DNA of 64,000 nucleotides from Candidatus Parcubacteria bacterium (GTDB lineage: Bacteria; Patescibacteriota; Minisyncoccia; Minisyncoccales; JAGLUP01): contig JAGLUP010000003.1 in NCBI GenBank assembly GCA_023134715.1, positions 118,909-182,908 on the forward strand. The letters are read 5' to 3'. Each line of letters begins with the position of its first letter. Within the stretch, counting starts at the first letter, position 1. Both the position numbers and the translations under genes were made by a program. This document shows positions 5,224 to 43,824 of this stretch, piece by piece. The notes under the pieces are model-generated. The model did no database searches, was not told the origin of the DNA, and saw only the letters and a program-made list of their open reading frames with translations.

Positions 5224-6942
5224 ATGGATATAGCAAATCACACAAAAATTAATAAGCGAATAAAACGCGGGATAAATTTTTTTTTGGCTTTAGTTATATT
5301 TTTAAGTATTCCCTTTTTTGTCTCAGCTGATTCTTTGGGAGAGAAAACAAATTTTTTTATTGCTTCTCCTTATGACGCTCAAAGCAGAGATAATATAGGC
5401 GCCACCTTGCAAGCAAAAAACAGCAAGCTCTATTTTTATATTGATGATAATTGGTGGGATAAATTTGGAACAGCCCAAGAACAGGAGATTAAAGCGGCTT
5501 TAAGCTCTCTTTCCAGTGCGTTTGAAGAAGAAATTTATCCTGTTCTGACTTCAACCTTTGGTTCAGAATGGAATCCAGGAATTGACAAAGACAGCAGAAT
5601 TACGGTTTTAATTCATCCAATGCCTGAAGAGGTTGGAGGTTATGTTAGGACAGAAGACGAATATCCTGAAATTCAAGCGCCTTGTTCCAACACAAGAGAA
5701 ATGCTTTATCTTAACGTTGATTATATAACCGAATCTTTAGCAAAATCTCTTTTAGCTCATGAGTTTATGCATTTAATCACTTTTAATCAAAAAGAAAGAA
5801 GATACGAAATAGAAGAAGAAATTTGGCTGAATGAGGCCAGGAGCGAATACGCGCCGACATTGATGGGATATGATAATGTTTTTCAGGAAAGCAATCTTGA
5901 AAATAGAGTTCAGATTTTTTTAGCAAATCCTAATGACTCAATCACAGAGTGGAAAAACAAAAAAGCTGATTACGGCGCGTTAAATCTTTTTATACAATAT
6001 TTAGTTGACCATTACGGCAAAGAAATTTTAAGCGATTCTTTGCATTGTCCCGAGACAGGAATTAAAAGTATAAATTACGCGCTTGAAAAAAATGGGCATA
6101 ATATAGAATTTTCTCAAGTTTTTTGGGACTGGGTTCTTACCGCTTTTATTAATGATTGCGCTTTGGGCGAGAATTATTGTTATTTGAATGAAAATTTAAA
6201 AGATTTTCATATTGTTCCTTCTTTAAACTTTCTTCCCTTTACAGGGAAGAGCAGTTTGACTATTGAGGATTCTGTTAAAGATTGGTCTGGCCGTTGGTAT
6301 AAAATTATGGGAGGCAAGGGAGATTTAAAATTAGAGTTTGACGGCGCGGATGAGTCCGAATTTAAAACCTCTTATTTTGTTTGCGACCTGTTTGGTAATT
6401 GTTTTTTGAAATCTTTAATTCTTGACCAAAATCAAGATGCCAGTATTATTTTTTCTGACTTTAATAATAAATATGCTTTTTTGACTATTGTTATATCTTC
6501 TCAGAATAAAATAGCAAAATTTAGCGAGTCAGAACCGGCTCATTCGTTTATTTTAAAAGCCACCACTATTCAAGAAGACGAAACAATCAAAAATTTGTTG
6601 CTTCAGATTGCGGCTTTAAAGCAGGAAATAGCTCGGCTTCAAGCGCAAATTCAAATAATTTTAGAAAAAAAAGTTTCCTGTAAGAAATTTGAGAATAATC
6701 TTTATTATGGTTTGAACAATGATGAGGTTCGCAATCTTCAGGAATTTTTTAAAAAACAAGGAAGCGATATTTATCCCGAAGCCATTGTTTCCGGCTGGTT
6801 CGGGCCGTTAACCCAATCCGCTGTAATTCGCTTTCAAGAAAAATACTCTAATGAAATTCTTGAACCGCTGGGAATGAGCAGGGGCACTGGTTTTGTGGGC
6901 AGCAGCACTCGCGCAAAAATCAACCAGCTTTTAGCAAAATAA
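5224..6942 (+). CDS. exported zinc metalloprotease with C-terminal peptidoglycan-binding domain
   Basis: The 572-residue protein has a basic start and hydrophobic helix at about 17-36 ending VSADS, so it is exported. A metalloprotease domain carries HEFMH (179-183, two zinc His and the catalytic Glu) and NEARSEY about 20 residues on, whose Glu204 suits the third ligand of a gluzincin; the look is of the M30 / immune-inhibitor-A type. A coiled coil follows (about 455-490, ALKQEIARLQAQIQ), then a peptidoglycan-binding domain (about 493-570, ending GTGFVGSSTRAKINQLL). The same C-terminal domain occurs in the Fn3 protein at 42,925. It probably acts on extracellular protein while held at the wall. 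The substrate is unknown. Confidence 0.8.
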   Translation: MDIANHTKINKRIKRGINFFLALVIFLSIPFFVSADSLGEKTNFFIASPYDAQSRDNIGATLQAKNSKLYFYIDDNWWDKFGTAQEQEIKAALSSLSSAFEEEIYPVLTSTFGSEWNPGIDKDSRITVLIHPMPEEVGGYVRTEDEYPEIQAPCSNTREMLYLNVDYITESLAKSLLAHEFMHLITFNQKERRYEIEEEIWLNEARSEYAPTLMGYDNVFQESNLENRVQIFLANPNDSITEWKNKKADYGALNLFIQYLVDHYGKEILSDSLHCPETGIKSINYALEKNGHNIEFSQVFWDWVLTAFINDCALGENYCYLNENLKDFHIVPSLNFLPFTGKSSLTIEDSVKDWSGRWYKIMGGKGDLKLEFDGADESEFKTSYFVCDLFGNCFLKSLILDQNQDASIIFSDFNNKYAFLTIVISSQNKIAKFSESEPAHSFILKATTIQEDETIKNLLLQIAALKQEIARLQAQIQIILEKKVSCKKFENNLYYGLNNDEVRNLQEFFKKQGSDIYPEAIVSGWFGPLTQSAVIRFQEKYSNEILEPLGMSRGTGFVGSSTRAKINQLLAK

Positions 6943-35496: not shown

Positions 35497-36684
35497 ATGA
35501 CAATAAAAGATTTTATTATTAGATTAGCATTAAATATCTTCTATATTCCCTTGTTTTTTATTTTCTCTTATCTTATTCCGAAAGATAAAAAGTTAATTTT
35601 AATTGGCTCTGGCTTTGGACACAGAATTATGGGTAATCCAAGATATTTTTATTTATGGCTTTGCCAACAGCAAAAAGTATTTTTTAAGTTTTCATGGATT
35701 ACTCGAAATAAAGAGCTTTTTCGTAAATTAAGGAAAGACGGCATACCTGTAGTGTTCCTTTATTCTCTAAAAGGAATGTGGTATATTATTAGAGCCAATT
35801 ATTTTATAATTGAACAATCTAGCCAAGATATTACAGGACGCACTTTTCTTTTAGGAAATTTTAACATTATAAATACTTGGCACGGAACATTTGTAAAGAA
35901 TGATTCGTTTGAAAAACTCAAGAAAAAAAGCTTGGGAAACAAATTATTCCATTCCTTAATGAAAAAGGAAAAAAAAAATTACAAACTAATTTTAGCTTGT
36001 TCAAAAAGCGCAGCATTAAATTTGCAGTTTGCTTTATTCAATAAAAATATCAAAATAACTGGCTATCCCCGCAATGATATATTTTTTAATAGAAATTTAA
36101 GTTTTAGAAATTATAGAAAAGAATTAAATTTAGATAAATACAGTAAAGTTTTGTTATACGCGCCGACTTTTAGAGACGGACAGAACTTAACAAGTCCTTT
36201 TTCAGAGGAATTTTCTATTGAGTTAAATAATCATCTCAAGAAAAATAATTATGTTTTTTTAATAAAAAATCATCCTTCTTTTGAGCACAAGATAAAAGTT
36301 TTTGAACTTAGCAATATATTGAATATTTCTAATTCTATTGACGACATTCAGGAGATTTTAATACATGCAGATGTTTTAATAACAGATTATTCAAGTATGT
36401 TTTTTGAATTTTGCTTAACTAATCGGCCAATCATTTTTTACCCTTATGATTATGACAGTTATCTAAAGAATTGTAGAGAAATGTACTATGATTATTACAA
36501 AGAGATGCCTGGGCCTTTCGCCAACAATCAAGAAGAGTTGCTTGATTTAATTAAGAGTGTCAATCAGTGGTCAAGAGACGAAGATTATAAAAGGCGTTAT
36601 GAATTATTTAAGAATAGATTTAATCAATACCAAGATGGAAAATCTTGTGAAAGATTATATGGTTTGATTAGGGAAATATTGTGA
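35497..36684 (+). CDS. CDP-glycerol glycerophosphotransferase family (TagB/TagF-like)
   Basis: The 395-residue protein has one N-terminal helix (about 10-28), then a GT-B-like domain with the TagF hallmarks NTWHGTFVKNDSF (about 127-139), GYPRNDIFF near 189-197, VLLYAPTFRDG near 219-229, LIKNHPSF near 257-264 and VLITDYSSMFFEF near 295-307. Members join poly(glycerol-phosphate) or related phosphate-linked polymers to a carrier. No CDP-glycerol synthetase (TagD) is visible, so the donor could be another CDP-polyol or sugar phosphate. Confidence 0.88.
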   Translation: MTIKDFIIRLALNIFYIPLFFIFSYLIPKDKKLILIGSGFGHRIMGNPRYFYLWLCQQQKVFFKFSWITRNKELFRKLRKDGIPVVFLYSLKGMWYIIRANYFIIEQSSQDITGRTFLLGNFNIINTWHGTFVKNDSFEKLKKKSLGNKLFHSLMKKEKKNYKLILACSKSAALNLQFALFNKNIKITGYPRNDIFFNRNLSFRNYRKELNLDKYSKVLLYAPTFRDGQNLTSPFSEEFSIELNNHLKKNNYVFLIKNHPSFEHKIKVFELSNILNISNSIDDIQEILIHADVLITDYSSMFFEFCLTNRPIIFYPYDYDSYLKNCREMYYDYYKEMPGPFANNQEELLDLIKSVNQWSRDEDYKRRYELFKNRFNQYQDGKSCERLYGLIREIL

Positions 36685-36727: not shown

Positions 36728-38137
36728 ATGAAAAAATTTTCTAAAACAAAAATAATTACCACCATCGGTCCCAGAACAGCAAATGAAAAGGATATTAAAA
36801 GATTAGTTGATTCAGGGATTAGCATGTTCCGATTGAATGCGTCTCATAATACATTGAAATGGCATCAAAAAGTCATAGAATTGATAAGAAAGAATGCTTT
36901 TAATATACCGATATTACTGGATATTCCTGGTAAAAAAGTAAGAGTGTCTCAAATTAAAGTACCCAAAAAATTAAAGATTGGCGAACCTTTTATCTTTACT
37001 GCCTCACCTAATATAGACGAAGAGAATAGAATTTCGGTTGATTATGATTTTTTGCATAAGGATGTAAAGCCCAATGACATAATTTTAGCTGATGATGGGA
37101 CATTAAAGTTTTATGTTCTAAAGATTGTTGATAATAATATACATACACGAATAGAGGCGGAAGGTATTTTATGCAGCCGTAAAGGGATTAATGTGCCTTA
37201 TAGAAAATTGAACAATTCTTTGATTAATTATAATGATAAGGTTTTATTAAATTTTTCAAGAGAAAATAAAGTTGACTATATAGGCGTTTCATTTGCAGAA
37301 AGCGGAGAATATATTCAAAAAATTAGAAAATATTTAAAAAGTTTAGATATCGGAATTATTGCCAAAATAGAAAATATTTTTGGATTAAATAATTTAGAAA
37401 ATATTATTAGAGAAAGCGATGGTATTATGATAGATAGAGGGGACTTGGGCGCAGAAACAAAGATTGAACATTTATCTATTCTTCAAAAAAGAATTATCAA
37501 AAAAACTAATCAATTTGGCAAGCCGGTAATTGTGGCTACTGAAATGATGGATAGTATGATTGAAAAATCTACTCCCACAAAAGCTGAAGTTTCTGATATT
37601 TCAAACGCTATCTTAGACGGCACGAGCTGTATTATGCTTTCGGGTGAAACAGCAATTGGTAGATTTCCAGAGAAATGCGTAGAAATTATGCAAAATATTG
37701 CTAAAGAAGTAGAGGGTTCAGTTTATCTTGATTATCCACGGATTAAAGTTAAAAAAAATGAATTACATAATATTTTTGGAAAAGCAATATCAGATATTAC
37801 TAATATTTATCCCGTAGATTATATTATTTGCATAACTAAAACAGGATTTGCTGTAAGCGTGGTTTCTAAATTTAAGCCGAGAATTCCCATTATAGTTGTT
37901 ACTGACAATATAACAACATATAGAAAATTAAATATTATATGGGGCGTTTTTCCTTTTTTATATCCAAAGGAATTTTCTTTGAAGTCAGATGAATATATGT
38001 ATCATGTGATAAGATTGTTAATCAAGAATAGAATAATAGACAGAAAAGACAAAATATTGATAACTTATGTAAAAAATCCTGTTTTTAGCGAAAAAATGAA
38101 TACAATTGAGGTGCATACTGCCAATAAATTTTTATAA
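36728..38137 (+). CDS. divergent pyruvate kinase paralogue
   Basis: The 469-residue protein keeps the pyruvate kinase fold order: TKIITTIGPRT (7-17), FRLNASHNT (34-42), a B domain, IIAKIENIFGLNN near 209-221 (active-site Lys), SDGIMIDRGDLGAE near 229-242, VATEMMDSM near 269-277 and GTSCIMLSGETA near 298-309. The active-site strand usually reading DTKGPEIR is DIPGKKVR, ARGD is DRGD, and TQM is TEM. So the phosphoryl-transfer core is mostly kept while the nucleotide/PEP entrance has changed. It lies 5 nt before ATP sulfurylase inside a polysaccharide locus, not in a glycolytic operon. It may be a specialised or repurposed kinase. Confidence 0.85.
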   Translation: MKKFSKTKIITTIGPRTANEKDIKRLVDSGISMFRLNASHNTLKWHQKVIELIRKNAFNIPILLDIPGKKVRVSQIKVPKKLKIGEPFIFTASPNIDEENRISVDYDFLHKDVKPNDIILADDGTLKFYVLKIVDNNIHTRIEAEGILCSRKGINVPYRKLNNSLINYNDKVLLNFSRENKVDYIGVSFAESGEYIQKIRKYLKSLDIGIIAKIENIFGLNNLENIIRESDGIMIDRGDLGAETKIEHLSILQKRIIKKTNQFGKPVIVATEMMDSMIEKSTPTKAEVSDISNAILDGTSCIMLSGETAIGRFPEKCVEIMQNIAKEVEGSVYLDYPRIKVKKNELHNIFGKAISDITNIYPVDYIICITKTGFAVSVVSKFKPRIPIIVVTDNITTYRKLNIIWGVFPFLYPKEFSLKSDEYMYHVIRLLIKNRIIDRKDKILITYVKNPVFSEKMNTIEVHTANKFL

Positions 38138-38142
38138 TAATT

Positions 38143-39213
38143 ATGAAGTCATTCGTGGTGAACAACGAAATATTAATGGATTTGGATAAAATTGCTAATA
38201 ATGCTTATCATCCTTTAAAAGGTTTTTTAAATAAAGATGATTTATTATCTGTAATAGAAAAATATCGTTTGACCAATGGGGAATGCTGGCCTATGCCTAT
38301 TATTTTAGATTTTGATAAAGAAGATATTAAAAGTTTTAAAATGGGCAGTGATATAATATTAAAAGAAAGTAGCGGGAAAGATATTGCTGAATTAAAAATT
38401 GAAGATATTTATCAGGTGAACAAAAAAAAATTAGCTAAAGATATATTTCTAACAAACGATGAAAATCATCCTGGCGTGAGATGGTGGCTTGGTTTAAAAG
38501 ATTTTTTTGTTGGCGGGAAAATTAAATTAATAAATAAGCCAATATTTTTTAACGCAGAAGATGAATTAAGTCCGCAAGAAGTAAAACATATTATTAAAAA
38601 TAATGGTTTTAAAACAATAGTTGGTTTTCATACTAGAAATCCTATTCATCGCGCTCATGAATATTTACAGCGATGTGCTTTGGAAATAACAGACTGTTTA
38701 GTTATTCATCCAGTAGTCGGTAAGAAGAAAAAAGGAGATTTTACAGCAGGAGCGATTCGGGCAAGTTATAATGCTATGCTGGAAAGTTATTATCCAAAAA
38801 ATAGAATAATTTTCAGTGTTTTGTCAACATATTCTCGATATGCCGGACCAAGAGAAGCATTATTTACAGCAATTATTAGAAGAAATTATGGCTGTACCCA
38901 TTTTATTGTTGGTCGTGACCATACGGGCGTAGCAAATTATTATGGCAGATATGATTCTCATAAAATTTTTAATCAATTTTCAGATTTAGGCATTACTCCT
39001 TTAAAATTTTATGAACCTGTATACTGTAGACATTGTAATAATATTGTTACAGAAAAAACCTGTATTCACAAAAATGGTTTTATCAAAATTAGCGGAACTA
39101 AAATTAGAGAGCTAATAAGTAAAAGTTCTAATATAAAAGATATTTATTTAAGAAAGGAAGTTTTAGAAAGTATTTTAAATTATGGAAAGAATAATAAAAT
39201 ATTTGTGGATTGA
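38143..39213 (+). CDS. sat: sulfate adenylyltransferase (ATP sulfurylase)
   Basis: The 356-residue protein has the complete single-domain ATP sulfurylase set: GFHTRNPIHRAHEYLQR (165-181, the nucleotide-binding HxRN and HRAH), GPREALFTAIIRRNYG near 242-257, FIVGRDHTGV near 262-271, a zinc-binding YCRHCNNIVTEKTC near 294-307 and ISGTKIRELI near 316. It makes APS from sulfate and ATP. There is no APS kinase domain, and no APS kinase, PAPS reductase or sulfotransferase is seen in the window. It follows the pyruvate kinase paralogue by 5 nt. Its place suggests sulfation of the surface polymer. Confidence 0.92.
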   Translation: MKSFVVNNEILMDLDKIANNAYHPLKGFLNKDDLLSVIEKYRLTNGECWPMPIILDFDKEDIKSFKMGSDIILKESSGKDIAELKIEDIYQVNKKKLAKDIFLTNDENHPGVRWWLGLKDFFVGGKIKLINKPIFFNAEDELSPQEVKHIIKNNGFKTIVGFHTRNPIHRAHEYLQRCALEITDCLVIHPVVGKKKKGDFTAGAIRASYNAMLESYYPKNRIIFSVLSTYSRYAGPREALFTAIIRRNYGCTHFIVGRDHTGVANYYGRYDSHKIFNQFSDLGITPLKFYEPVYCRHCNNIVTEKTCIHKNGFIKISGTKIRELISKSSNIKDIYLRKEVLESILNYGKNNKIFVD

Positions 39214-42861: not shown

Positions 42862-42924
42862 CTTTAATTTTTCGGTCGACTGTGGTTTTTATAAATTTGA
42901 AATATTATACTTATGGAGGAACAA

Positions 42925-43824
42925 ATGAAAAATTCTAAAAAATGGCAAACAGCAACAGGAGTTTTAATTGTTGCTGGATTTGTTGCTGTTAGCTTATTAA
43001 GCGTGCCTGTCTTGTCTTTAGTAAGCGTAGCTTTTGGTTACGGCGGAGGTGGAGGCGCTGCCGGTGATACTATGGCGCCTATAATCAGCAATATTGAAGC
43101 TGTGGTCAGCGACAATGACGCTGTTATTACATGGGGCACCCATGAATCATCTATTTCTTGGGTGGTTTATGGAACAGACACTGATTATGGTTCAGAGGTA
43201 AAAACAACCAGTTATACAGTTTCTCATTCGGTAACCTTGGGAGACCTTGTTTCTGGAACAACCTATCACTATCAGGTGAAATCAAAAGATAGTTCAGGAA
43301 ACATAGGAACTTATACTGATAAAACATTTACTACTACAGGTGAAGCCGGAGAAGTAGTAGAAGAAGATGAGGAAGAAGGTGAAGCCGGAGAGGAAGAAGG
43401 TGAAGGCGATGGCGAAGCAGAAGAGGAGAAACCAATTTCAGAAATGACTATCCCAGAACTTCAGGCAAAAATTGTTGAAATAACAGCTCTTATTGCTCAA
43501 CTTCAAGCGCAATTAGCAGGAACAACTGTTGCTGGTTGTACGATTACCAGCTTTGATAGAAATTTGAGCCAAGGAATGGCTGGCGACGATGTTAAATGTC
43601 TGCAGATTGTGTTAAACACTGCTTCTGATACTCAAATAGCTGATTCAGGCGTAGGTTCTCCTGGAAGCGAAACCACTTACTTTGGTCCATTGACTAAAGC
43701 AGGCGTTATTAAGTTTCAGGAAAAATACGCTGATGAAATTTTAGCTTCTTGGGGATTAACTTCAGGAACAGGTCTTGTTGGTTCTACCACGAGAGCTAAG
43801 CTTAATCAGATTTTAGCGGAATAG
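42925..43824 (+). CDS. exported Fn3-domain protein with C-terminal peptidoglycan-binding domain
   Basis: The ATG at 42925 is chosen because GGAGG (42915-42919) lies 5 nt before it; an ATG at 42913 would swallow that site. The 299-residue protein has a signal peptide (about 1-36), a glycine run, a fibronectin type III/purple-phosphatase-like domain (about 45-138: APIISNIEAVVSDNDAVITW split, then TTYHYQVKSKDSSGN), an acidic linker of Glu/Gly/Ala (about 139-175), a short coiled coil (180-200) and a peptidoglycan-binding domain (about 205-298, ending GTGLVGSTTRAKLNQIL). The last domain matches that of the protease at 5,224. Strong signals and a terminator suggest an abundant wall protein. Confidence 0.8.
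   Translation: MKNSKKWQTATGVLIVAGFVAVSLLSVPVLSLVSVAFGYGGGGGAAGDTMAPIISNIEAVVSDNDAVITWGTHESSISWVVYGTDTDYGSEVKTTSYTVSHSVTLGDLVSGTTYHYQVKSKDSSGNIGTYTDKTFTTTGEAGEVVEEDEEEGEAGEEEGEGDGEAEEEKPISEMTIPELQAKIVEITALIAQLQAQLAGTTVAGCTITSFDRNLSQGMAGDDVKCLQIVLNTASDTQIADSGVGSPGSETTYFGPLTKAGVIKFQEKYADEILASWGLTSGTGLVGSTTRAKLNQILAE

Follow-up and report, generated by a model that had tools for sequence, protein, structure and literature searches.

A pyruvate kinase–ATP sulfurylase gene pair at the end of a glycan locus

The window, i.e., the whole 64,000-nucleotide stretch of a Candidatus Parcubacteria contig analyzed here, contains a long run of glycan genes that ends in genes for a pyruvate kinase (PK) and an ATP sulfurylase (Sat) on the same strand. 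The run includes genes for nucleotide-sugar enzymes, aminotransferases, glycosyltransferases, a UDP-GlcNAc 2-epimerase and a PF04464 protein. The ORF coordinates and the Pfam assignments of the neighbors agree with the first-pass annotation of this DNA, which had placed the pair, with its gap of 5 nt, among glycan genes. The features that matter here are:

35497..36684, forward strand: PF04464 glycerophosphotransferase-family gene upstream of the PK gene, given only as context of the glycan locus (Pfam)
36728..38137, forward strand: pyruvate kinase, barrel and C-terminal domain, 469 aa, sulfate-linked clade A (Pfam/NCBIfam, trees)
36920..36943, forward strand: DIPGKKVR motif of the PK, residues 65-72, with the Lys that is a marker of K+-independent PKs (alignment; PMC4284704)
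37433..37444, forward strand: DRGD of the PK, residues 236-239, where ordinary PKs have ARGD (alignment)
38143..39213, forward strand: ATP sulfurylase, 356 aa, with altered sulfate-pocket residues (Pfam/NCBIfam, alignment, Sat tree)
38629..38640, forward strand: HTRN of the Sat, residues 163-166, with His for the Gln of the sulfate-binding QxRN (alignment; PMC3779200)
38866..38868, forward strand: Thr242 in FTA of the Sat, where other Sats have FHA (alignment)
38911..38928, forward strand: GRDHTG of the Sat, with Thr261 for the Ala whose backbone NH binds sulfate (alignment; PMC3779200)

Both proteins are assigned to their families by full-length matches. The PK matches PF00224 (297 bits) and PF02887, i.e., PK_C (71.5 bits), beyond the curated cut-offs, and TIGR01064 (434 bits), again above cut-off; the Sat matches PF01747 (257 bits), PUA_2 (128 bits) and, above its cut-off, PRK04149 (416 bits), while it passes the TIGR00339 cut-off narrowly. 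Elsewhere in the window, two secreted-looking proteins (5224-6942 and 42913-43824) have in common a C-terminal peptidoglycan-binding-like repeat (FGPLT..AVIRFQEKY ... GSSTRAKINQLLA).

The genome from which the window comes (G000; 762 kb, 12 contigs, estimated to be 90% complete) has exactly one PK match in a genome-wide family search, namely the window PK, so that a glycolytic role for it is also possible, perhaps even as its chief one. The first-pass annotation had seen no partner for the pair. Genome-wide family searches, on which all absences from G000 given here are based, likewise returned no match to APS kinase (PF01583) and no sulfotransferase of PF00685, PF13469 or PF06990, and neither function was found near the pair, unlike in most relatives; a soluble pyrophosphatase, however, is encoded elsewhere in the genome, away from the pair. 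Since the assembly is only 90% complete, the APS kinase may simply be missing from it. An enolase match is also present (L230, G000:C3:4620-5456); it has one internal TAA stop, which could reflect an error in sequencing or the edge of the alignment.

A kinase signature tied to sulfate activation

The window PK retains the catalytic residues of the family, i.e., the Arg and Asn of RxNxSH, the Asp of the DTKG position, KxE, RGD and the Thr of ATxx, and the catalytic residues are invariant among the PK–Sat fusions described below. The motifs that had been read from the DNA in the first pass (RLNxSH, KIEN, MLSGE, DIPGKKVR and DRGD) are all present as claimed, while the divergence that they were taken to signal holds only in part. 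Much of the change from DTKGPEIR is ordinary: many PKs of Patescibacteria read DLQGPKIR or a close variant, and Lys at 117 without Thr at 113 marks a known K+-independent class (PMC4284704, PMC5501398). Thus, part of the claimed divergence was already known, and the notion that DIPGKKVR by itself denotes a new substrate is weakened. What is special in this motif is the Ile-Pro and the first Lys of GKK, the form DIPG(K/R)K(I/V)R being common to the window PK, a PK of the marine alphaproteobacterium MarineAlpha9 (L083) and PKs on Komagataeibacter plasmids.

In an alignment of 74 PKs, every one of the 15 with a Sat or sulfotransferase link has DRGD as the motif before the catalytic Asp, the rest having ARGD (58) or GRGD (1). 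With loci added later, DRGD occurs in 19 of 19 linked PKs, a count in which six sequences form three close pairs, so that the independent cases are fewer, and in which the sole neighbor of two viral members (L232 and L233) that hints at a link is a gene of no known class whose product has a sulfotransferase-like loop; it occurs in none of 77 distinct others, L214 being a repeat of L097. The residue after the catalytic Thr has also changed in the sulfate-linked PKs, which read ATE or ATN where others mostly read ATQ. The window PK, with DRGD and ATE, is accordingly missing both the Ala before RGD and the Gln after the catalytic Thr, residues that are conserved in ordinary PKs (ARGD almost universally, ATQ usually) and that are not known to be required for activity.

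In the trees, the window PK lies far from the ordinary PKs of its own phylum, in a clade (clade A, support 100/100) with the L083 PK and those of two Komagataeibacter plasmids (L158 and L234), which bears out the separation from glycolytic Pyk that the first pass had suggested looking for. The fused PKs, which are devoid of the C-terminal domain that the window PK keeps, form a second clade (clade B, 100/100) together with three viral PKs and one PK of a genome without Sat, next to a sulfotransferase (G274). The data do not reject a tree in which clades A and B are joined (p-AU 0.134), and in a wider tree they adjoin with weak support (80/57); hence, both one and two origins of DRGD are possible. 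When 379 genomes of the phylum were searched for further PKs of the window type, nothing apart from the window PK exceeded 274 bits and about 41% identity, and the 19 best of these matches all read ARGD; for comparison, the L083 PK scores 371 bits.

An altered sulfate pocket in the partner sulfurylase

The first-pass description of the ATP sulfurylase as intact stands for the family assignments and most motifs, including HxxH, GRDH, SGTxxR and the Zn-binding Cys/His; it calls for qualification at QxRN, which has lost its Gln to His (HTRN), and at GRDHA, which reads GRDHT. These two positions and the His of FHA, which is Thr here, are changed in the window Sat and in 12 PK-fused or broken-fusion Sats, and in 0 of 56 other Sats counted, that of L083 included. 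The replacement of Gln by His is uniform (13 of the 13 PK-linked Sats of the clade), and that of Ala is by Thr in 11 and by Ser in the two rhizobial ones. In the Allochromatium Sat, sulfate is bound by Gln199, Arg201 and the backbone NH of Ala299 (PMC3779200), and two of the three altered positions thus belong to the sulfate pocket.

A tree of the Sats unites the PK-fused ones in a single clade (98/93), to which the window Sat is sister (99/96). When the three pocket columns are left out, the window Sat lies within a 15-row set that holds the 12 PK-fused Sats and two others, where it meets the long branch of the L083 Sat and its exact place shifts. Taken together, the PK and Sat trees suggest that the window pair is best read as an unfused form of the partnership, with the exact branching uncertain.

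Fusions and linked loci across distant lineages

Sat is rare in this part of the bacterial tree, being found in 12 of 290 relatives and in 9 of 379 genomes drawn from the phylum as a whole, for a total of 20 genomes when that of the window is counted once. Eleven of these carry a Sat–APS kinase fusion, one (G127) has only a Sat fragment, and eight have a PK-linked Sat: the window pair, PK–Sat fusions in six relatives (G005, G112, G190, G205, G236 and G285), and a triple PK–Sat–APS kinase fusion of 916 aa in another member of Patescibacteria (G612, L138:364-3111). Beyond the sampled genomes, PK–Sat fusions are encoded by one contig each of Parcubacteria SURF_53 (L051) and Pacearchaeota (L031), as well as by plasmids of the rhizobia Ensifer adhaerens and Sinorhizobium chiapasense, whose fusions show 43% identity across 99% of the length; the double fusions from all these sources and the six relatives measure 726-752 aa. 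On a Nanoarchaeota contig (L062:1-1906), the PK–Sat looks broken, with a PK part that is without the DRGD stretch and a Sat that starts in a separate ORF.

Five relatives (G005, G190, G205, G236 and G285) have an APS kinase gene right after the fusion and a sulfotransferase gene after that, the latter recognized by a Pfam match in G190 and G285 and by similarity to the G190 gene in the other three; in G112, the APS kinase lies just past the fusion on the opposite strand, with a sulfotransferase nearby. An APS kinase also directly follows the fusion in SURF_53 and at the rhizobial loci (L159 and L160). The G612 locus, where it follows the triple fusion, and the G112 locus both have a nearby gene of the inositol-monophosphatase family, to which the PAP phosphatase CysQ belongs. 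The marine L083, which carries the closest PK to that of the window, keeps the genes apart: within a glycan locus of the sialic-acid type, APS kinase comes first, then Sat, a full-length PK and finally a gene that starts like a sulfotransferase but is not matched by Pfam. One of the rhizobial loci (L159:3421-14256) combines the fusion with genes for an O-antigen ligase-like protein, a PqqD-domain protein, an NTP_transf_5 nucleotidyltransferase and a Na/H exchanger, and has no obvious sulfotransferase.

Thus, the adjacency that the first pass had proposed to look for is found, as neighboring genes and as fusions, across phyla, and the pairing is not confined to one genome but recurs in relatives, rhizobia and Pacearchaeota. 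Chance adjacency is rejected, given that fusions recur in such distant lineages. The surroundings of 76 ordinary PK loci (424 kb) yielded neither Sat nor sulfotransferase, and only a single generic P-loop kinase; an APS-kinase-like gene beside an ordinary PK (L215) is matched better by other P-loop families. Among the relatives, there are also PKs for which the Pfam match leaves out the central part of the barrel model, i.e., the B-domain region (L186-L190), and, in several genomes, short PK-like ORFs of this kind with 226-232 aa (L191-L196).

DRGD kinases beside sulfotransferases

A further set of DRGD PKs adjoins sulfotransferases at loci devoid of Sat. In G274 (L135:8708-10649), the PK gene overlaps one for a Gal-3-O-sulfotransferase-like protein, and family searches of this 98% complete genome returned neither Sat nor APS kinase; a weak APS kinase match proved to be an adenylate-kinase-like gene beside methionine aminopeptidase-like and SecY-like genes. 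The two Komagataeibacter plasmids (L158:8118-9975 and L234:805-2644) carry a sulfotransferase–PK pair, with kinases that are 90% identical and with no Sat nearby. Viral contigs gave no match when searched with the window PK alone, while the fusion alignment retrieved three. One of them (L231:3842-5862), called a phage from a virion structural protein family encoded on it, has overlapping genes for a sulfotransferase, a DRGD PK and a 123-aa nucleotidyltransferase-like protein (HDGH ... ISATKIR), without any Sat. On the other two (L232:7995-9526 and L233:603-2131), the gene that comes shortly after the DRGD PK encodes a small protein containing a SAGRTAS loop, which has a sulfotransferase-like look and no Pfam or PHROG match.

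A proposed PEP-fed module for sulfate activation

APS formation is among the most unfavorable activation steps in biology, and the known ways of driving it involve APS kinase, a GTPase or the removal of pyrophosphate. The sequences themselves demonstrate a gene link between PK and Sat, fusions of the two (the triple one included), a conserved PK active site, clade-specific residues and, in relatives, the partners expected of sulfate activation. In light of this, we propose, at a probability of roughly 0.6, that the window pair is an unfused sulfate-activation module in which a dedicated, PEP-fed PK would supply the ATP for Sat; adjacency and fusions, the separate clade and the operon partners lend strong support to the earlier suggestion of a kinase dedicated to PEP-driven sulfate activation. 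The PK would make ATP from PEP and ADP beside Sat, which would use it with sulfate to form APS; in most relatives, APS kinase would then convert APS to PAPS and return ADP for recycling by the PK. PEP would thus pay for activation with no build-up of ADP, and the product would be used by sulfotransferases whose targets are surface glycans or the like. In the source genome, the last steps may rely on an APS kinase encoded in the tenth that the assembly does not cover, or else APS may donate its sulfuryl group directly, in which case adenylate kinase would turn AMP back into ADP. The PK and Sat activities, the hand-over of ATP and sulfation as the end use are what we infer from these patterns. 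A supply of PEP fits because enolase is encoded in G000, as removal of pyrophosphate does because of its pyrophosphatase. An in vitro parallel is human PAPSS1, with which near-absent PAPS gave way to clear production once PK and PEP were added (PMC9885120), by the same ADP-recycling logic.

Several observations sit uneasily with ATP supply: the lack of APS kinase and sulfotransferase matches in G000, the DRGD PKs beside sulfotransferases at loci without Sat, and the changes of the Sat pocket (Q to H, A to T), the last two being left unexplained by it. The lack of APS kinase might be accommodated by APS-dependent sulfation, in which sulfotransferases here use APS and release AMP, with adenylate kinase and PK restoring ATP; several sulfotransferases do accept APS as donor in vitro (PMC10638397), and the PK would still be required for recharging ADP. 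This is unlikely, considering that no sulfotransferase of the three families was found in G000, that relatives retain APS kinase, and that the incompleteness of the assembly might account for its absence here. The altered pocket could alternatively mean that the Sat of this clade activates another oxyanion, as the positions changed from Q and A hydrogen-bond sulfate in a known Sat (PMC3779200) and the other Sats compared keep both residues; yet the same operons hold APS kinase and Pfam-recognized sulfotransferases, L083 pairs an unchanged pocket with the same PK type, and the remaining catalytic motifs of Sat are intact, which makes a different oxyanion highly improbable.

As for the kinase, an ordinary glycolytic PK with Sat as an accidental neighbor in a glycan locus would agree with its standing as the sole PK of a genome that has enolase, and with its C-terminal domain and catalytic residues. 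The first pass had named as contrary to its idea a kinase that both groups within ordinary Pyk and is the only one of its genome; the window PK is indeed the only one, yet it does not group there. The recurrent fusions in distant lineages and the 100/100 clade with PKs beside Sat or sulfotransferases render a purely glycolytic enzyme quite unlikely, as does the fact that a PK match is missing altogether in 211 of 290 relatives, indicating that PK is no fixed part of their glycolysis. Two of the fusion-bearing relatives (G005 and G236) hold an additional ordinary PK, implying that the fused PK is not the glycolytic one there. The DRGD PKs might instead be a distinct kind of enzyme with a changed acceptor, which would use PEP to act on a sulfation nucleotide, making PAPS directly from APS or recharging a spent nucleotide beside the sulfotransferase, with no need of APS kinase. 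The A-to-D change beside the catalytic Asp in all sulfate-linked PKs, with ATE/ATN, the source genome with PK and Sat and no recognizable APS kinase, and the G274 PK beside a sulfotransferase without Sat or APS kinase would be in keeping with this; were it true, this organism, the Komagataeibacter plasmids and phages would have a PEP-driven sulfation pathway without APS kinase. However, the residues that act on ADP and PEP are unaltered, and a separate APS kinase accompanies the PK in fusion-bearing relatives and in L083 or is even fused to it in one chain in G612. The particular substrate change suggested in the first pass, phosphorylation of APS, is therefore unsupported, with PK active-site residues kept and a separate APS kinase in most homologous operons, and a changed acceptor of any kind, which the observations do not require, is distinctly improbable, being retained at low probability on account of the DRGD PKs beside sulfotransferases without Sat. 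The APS kinase and sulfotransferase genes for which the first pass had proposed a search are thus found in the homologous operons but not in the source genome, and the preferred reading remains that of a PK supplying ATP to Sat.

Relationship to known systems

The enzyme families are well known; their partnership, the fusions and the residue signature appear to be undescribed in the literature searched. No report of a PK–Sat fusion was found among 5.4 million open papers, where PK features with Sat or sulfate activation only in assays, in engineered systems or in passing. In archaea, a survey of fused proteins lists a single Sat fusion, with a histidine phosphatase as partner (PMC11237513). 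If the proposal is true, energy from PEP, brought on site and in some lineages within one polypeptide, would be another driver of APS formation, and would explain how ATP-poor cells with tiny genomes afford sulfated surface glycans. The combination of DRGD and HTRN separates this class from the ordinary enzymes of current annotation, and the G612 fusion is a natural one-chain candidate for a PEP-fed PAPS synthetase, with potential use in making sulfated sugars.

Several known systems come close. The Sat–APS kinase fusions of the Aquifex/fungal type (PRK05537), present in 11 Patescibacteria genomes, tie Sat to the following enzyme, which keeps activation running, and serve to supply PAPS, whereas the window and seven other genomes of Patescibacteria pair Sat with PK, their APS kinase being separate, added at the C-terminus or, for the window, not found. 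PAPS synthetase (PAPSS, APS kinase–Sat) makes PAPS in a single chain, and the same two activities are predicted in the G612 fusion, which differs in domain order and adds an N-terminal, PEP-using source of ATP. CysDN with its GTPase and the associations of Sat with APS kinase and pyrophosphatase are likewise ways of pushing an uphill reaction; in the PK–Sat system, the candidate driver is PEP via PK, with no CysN GTPase alongside and the pyrophosphatase elsewhere in the genome. The K+-independent PKs of the Lys117 class have in common with the window PK the full fold, the catalytic residues and Lys at 117, whereas the sulfate-linked PKs are set apart by DRGD, ATE/ATN, the link to Sat or sulfotransferases and, in the fused ones, the lack of the C-terminal domain. 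Finally, in laboratory PAPS systems with PK and PEP, the PK recycles the ADP from APS kinase and the yield of PAPS is much higher (PMC9885120); what there is a man-made mixture has its counterpart here, as known from sequence, in a natural gene association and fusion.
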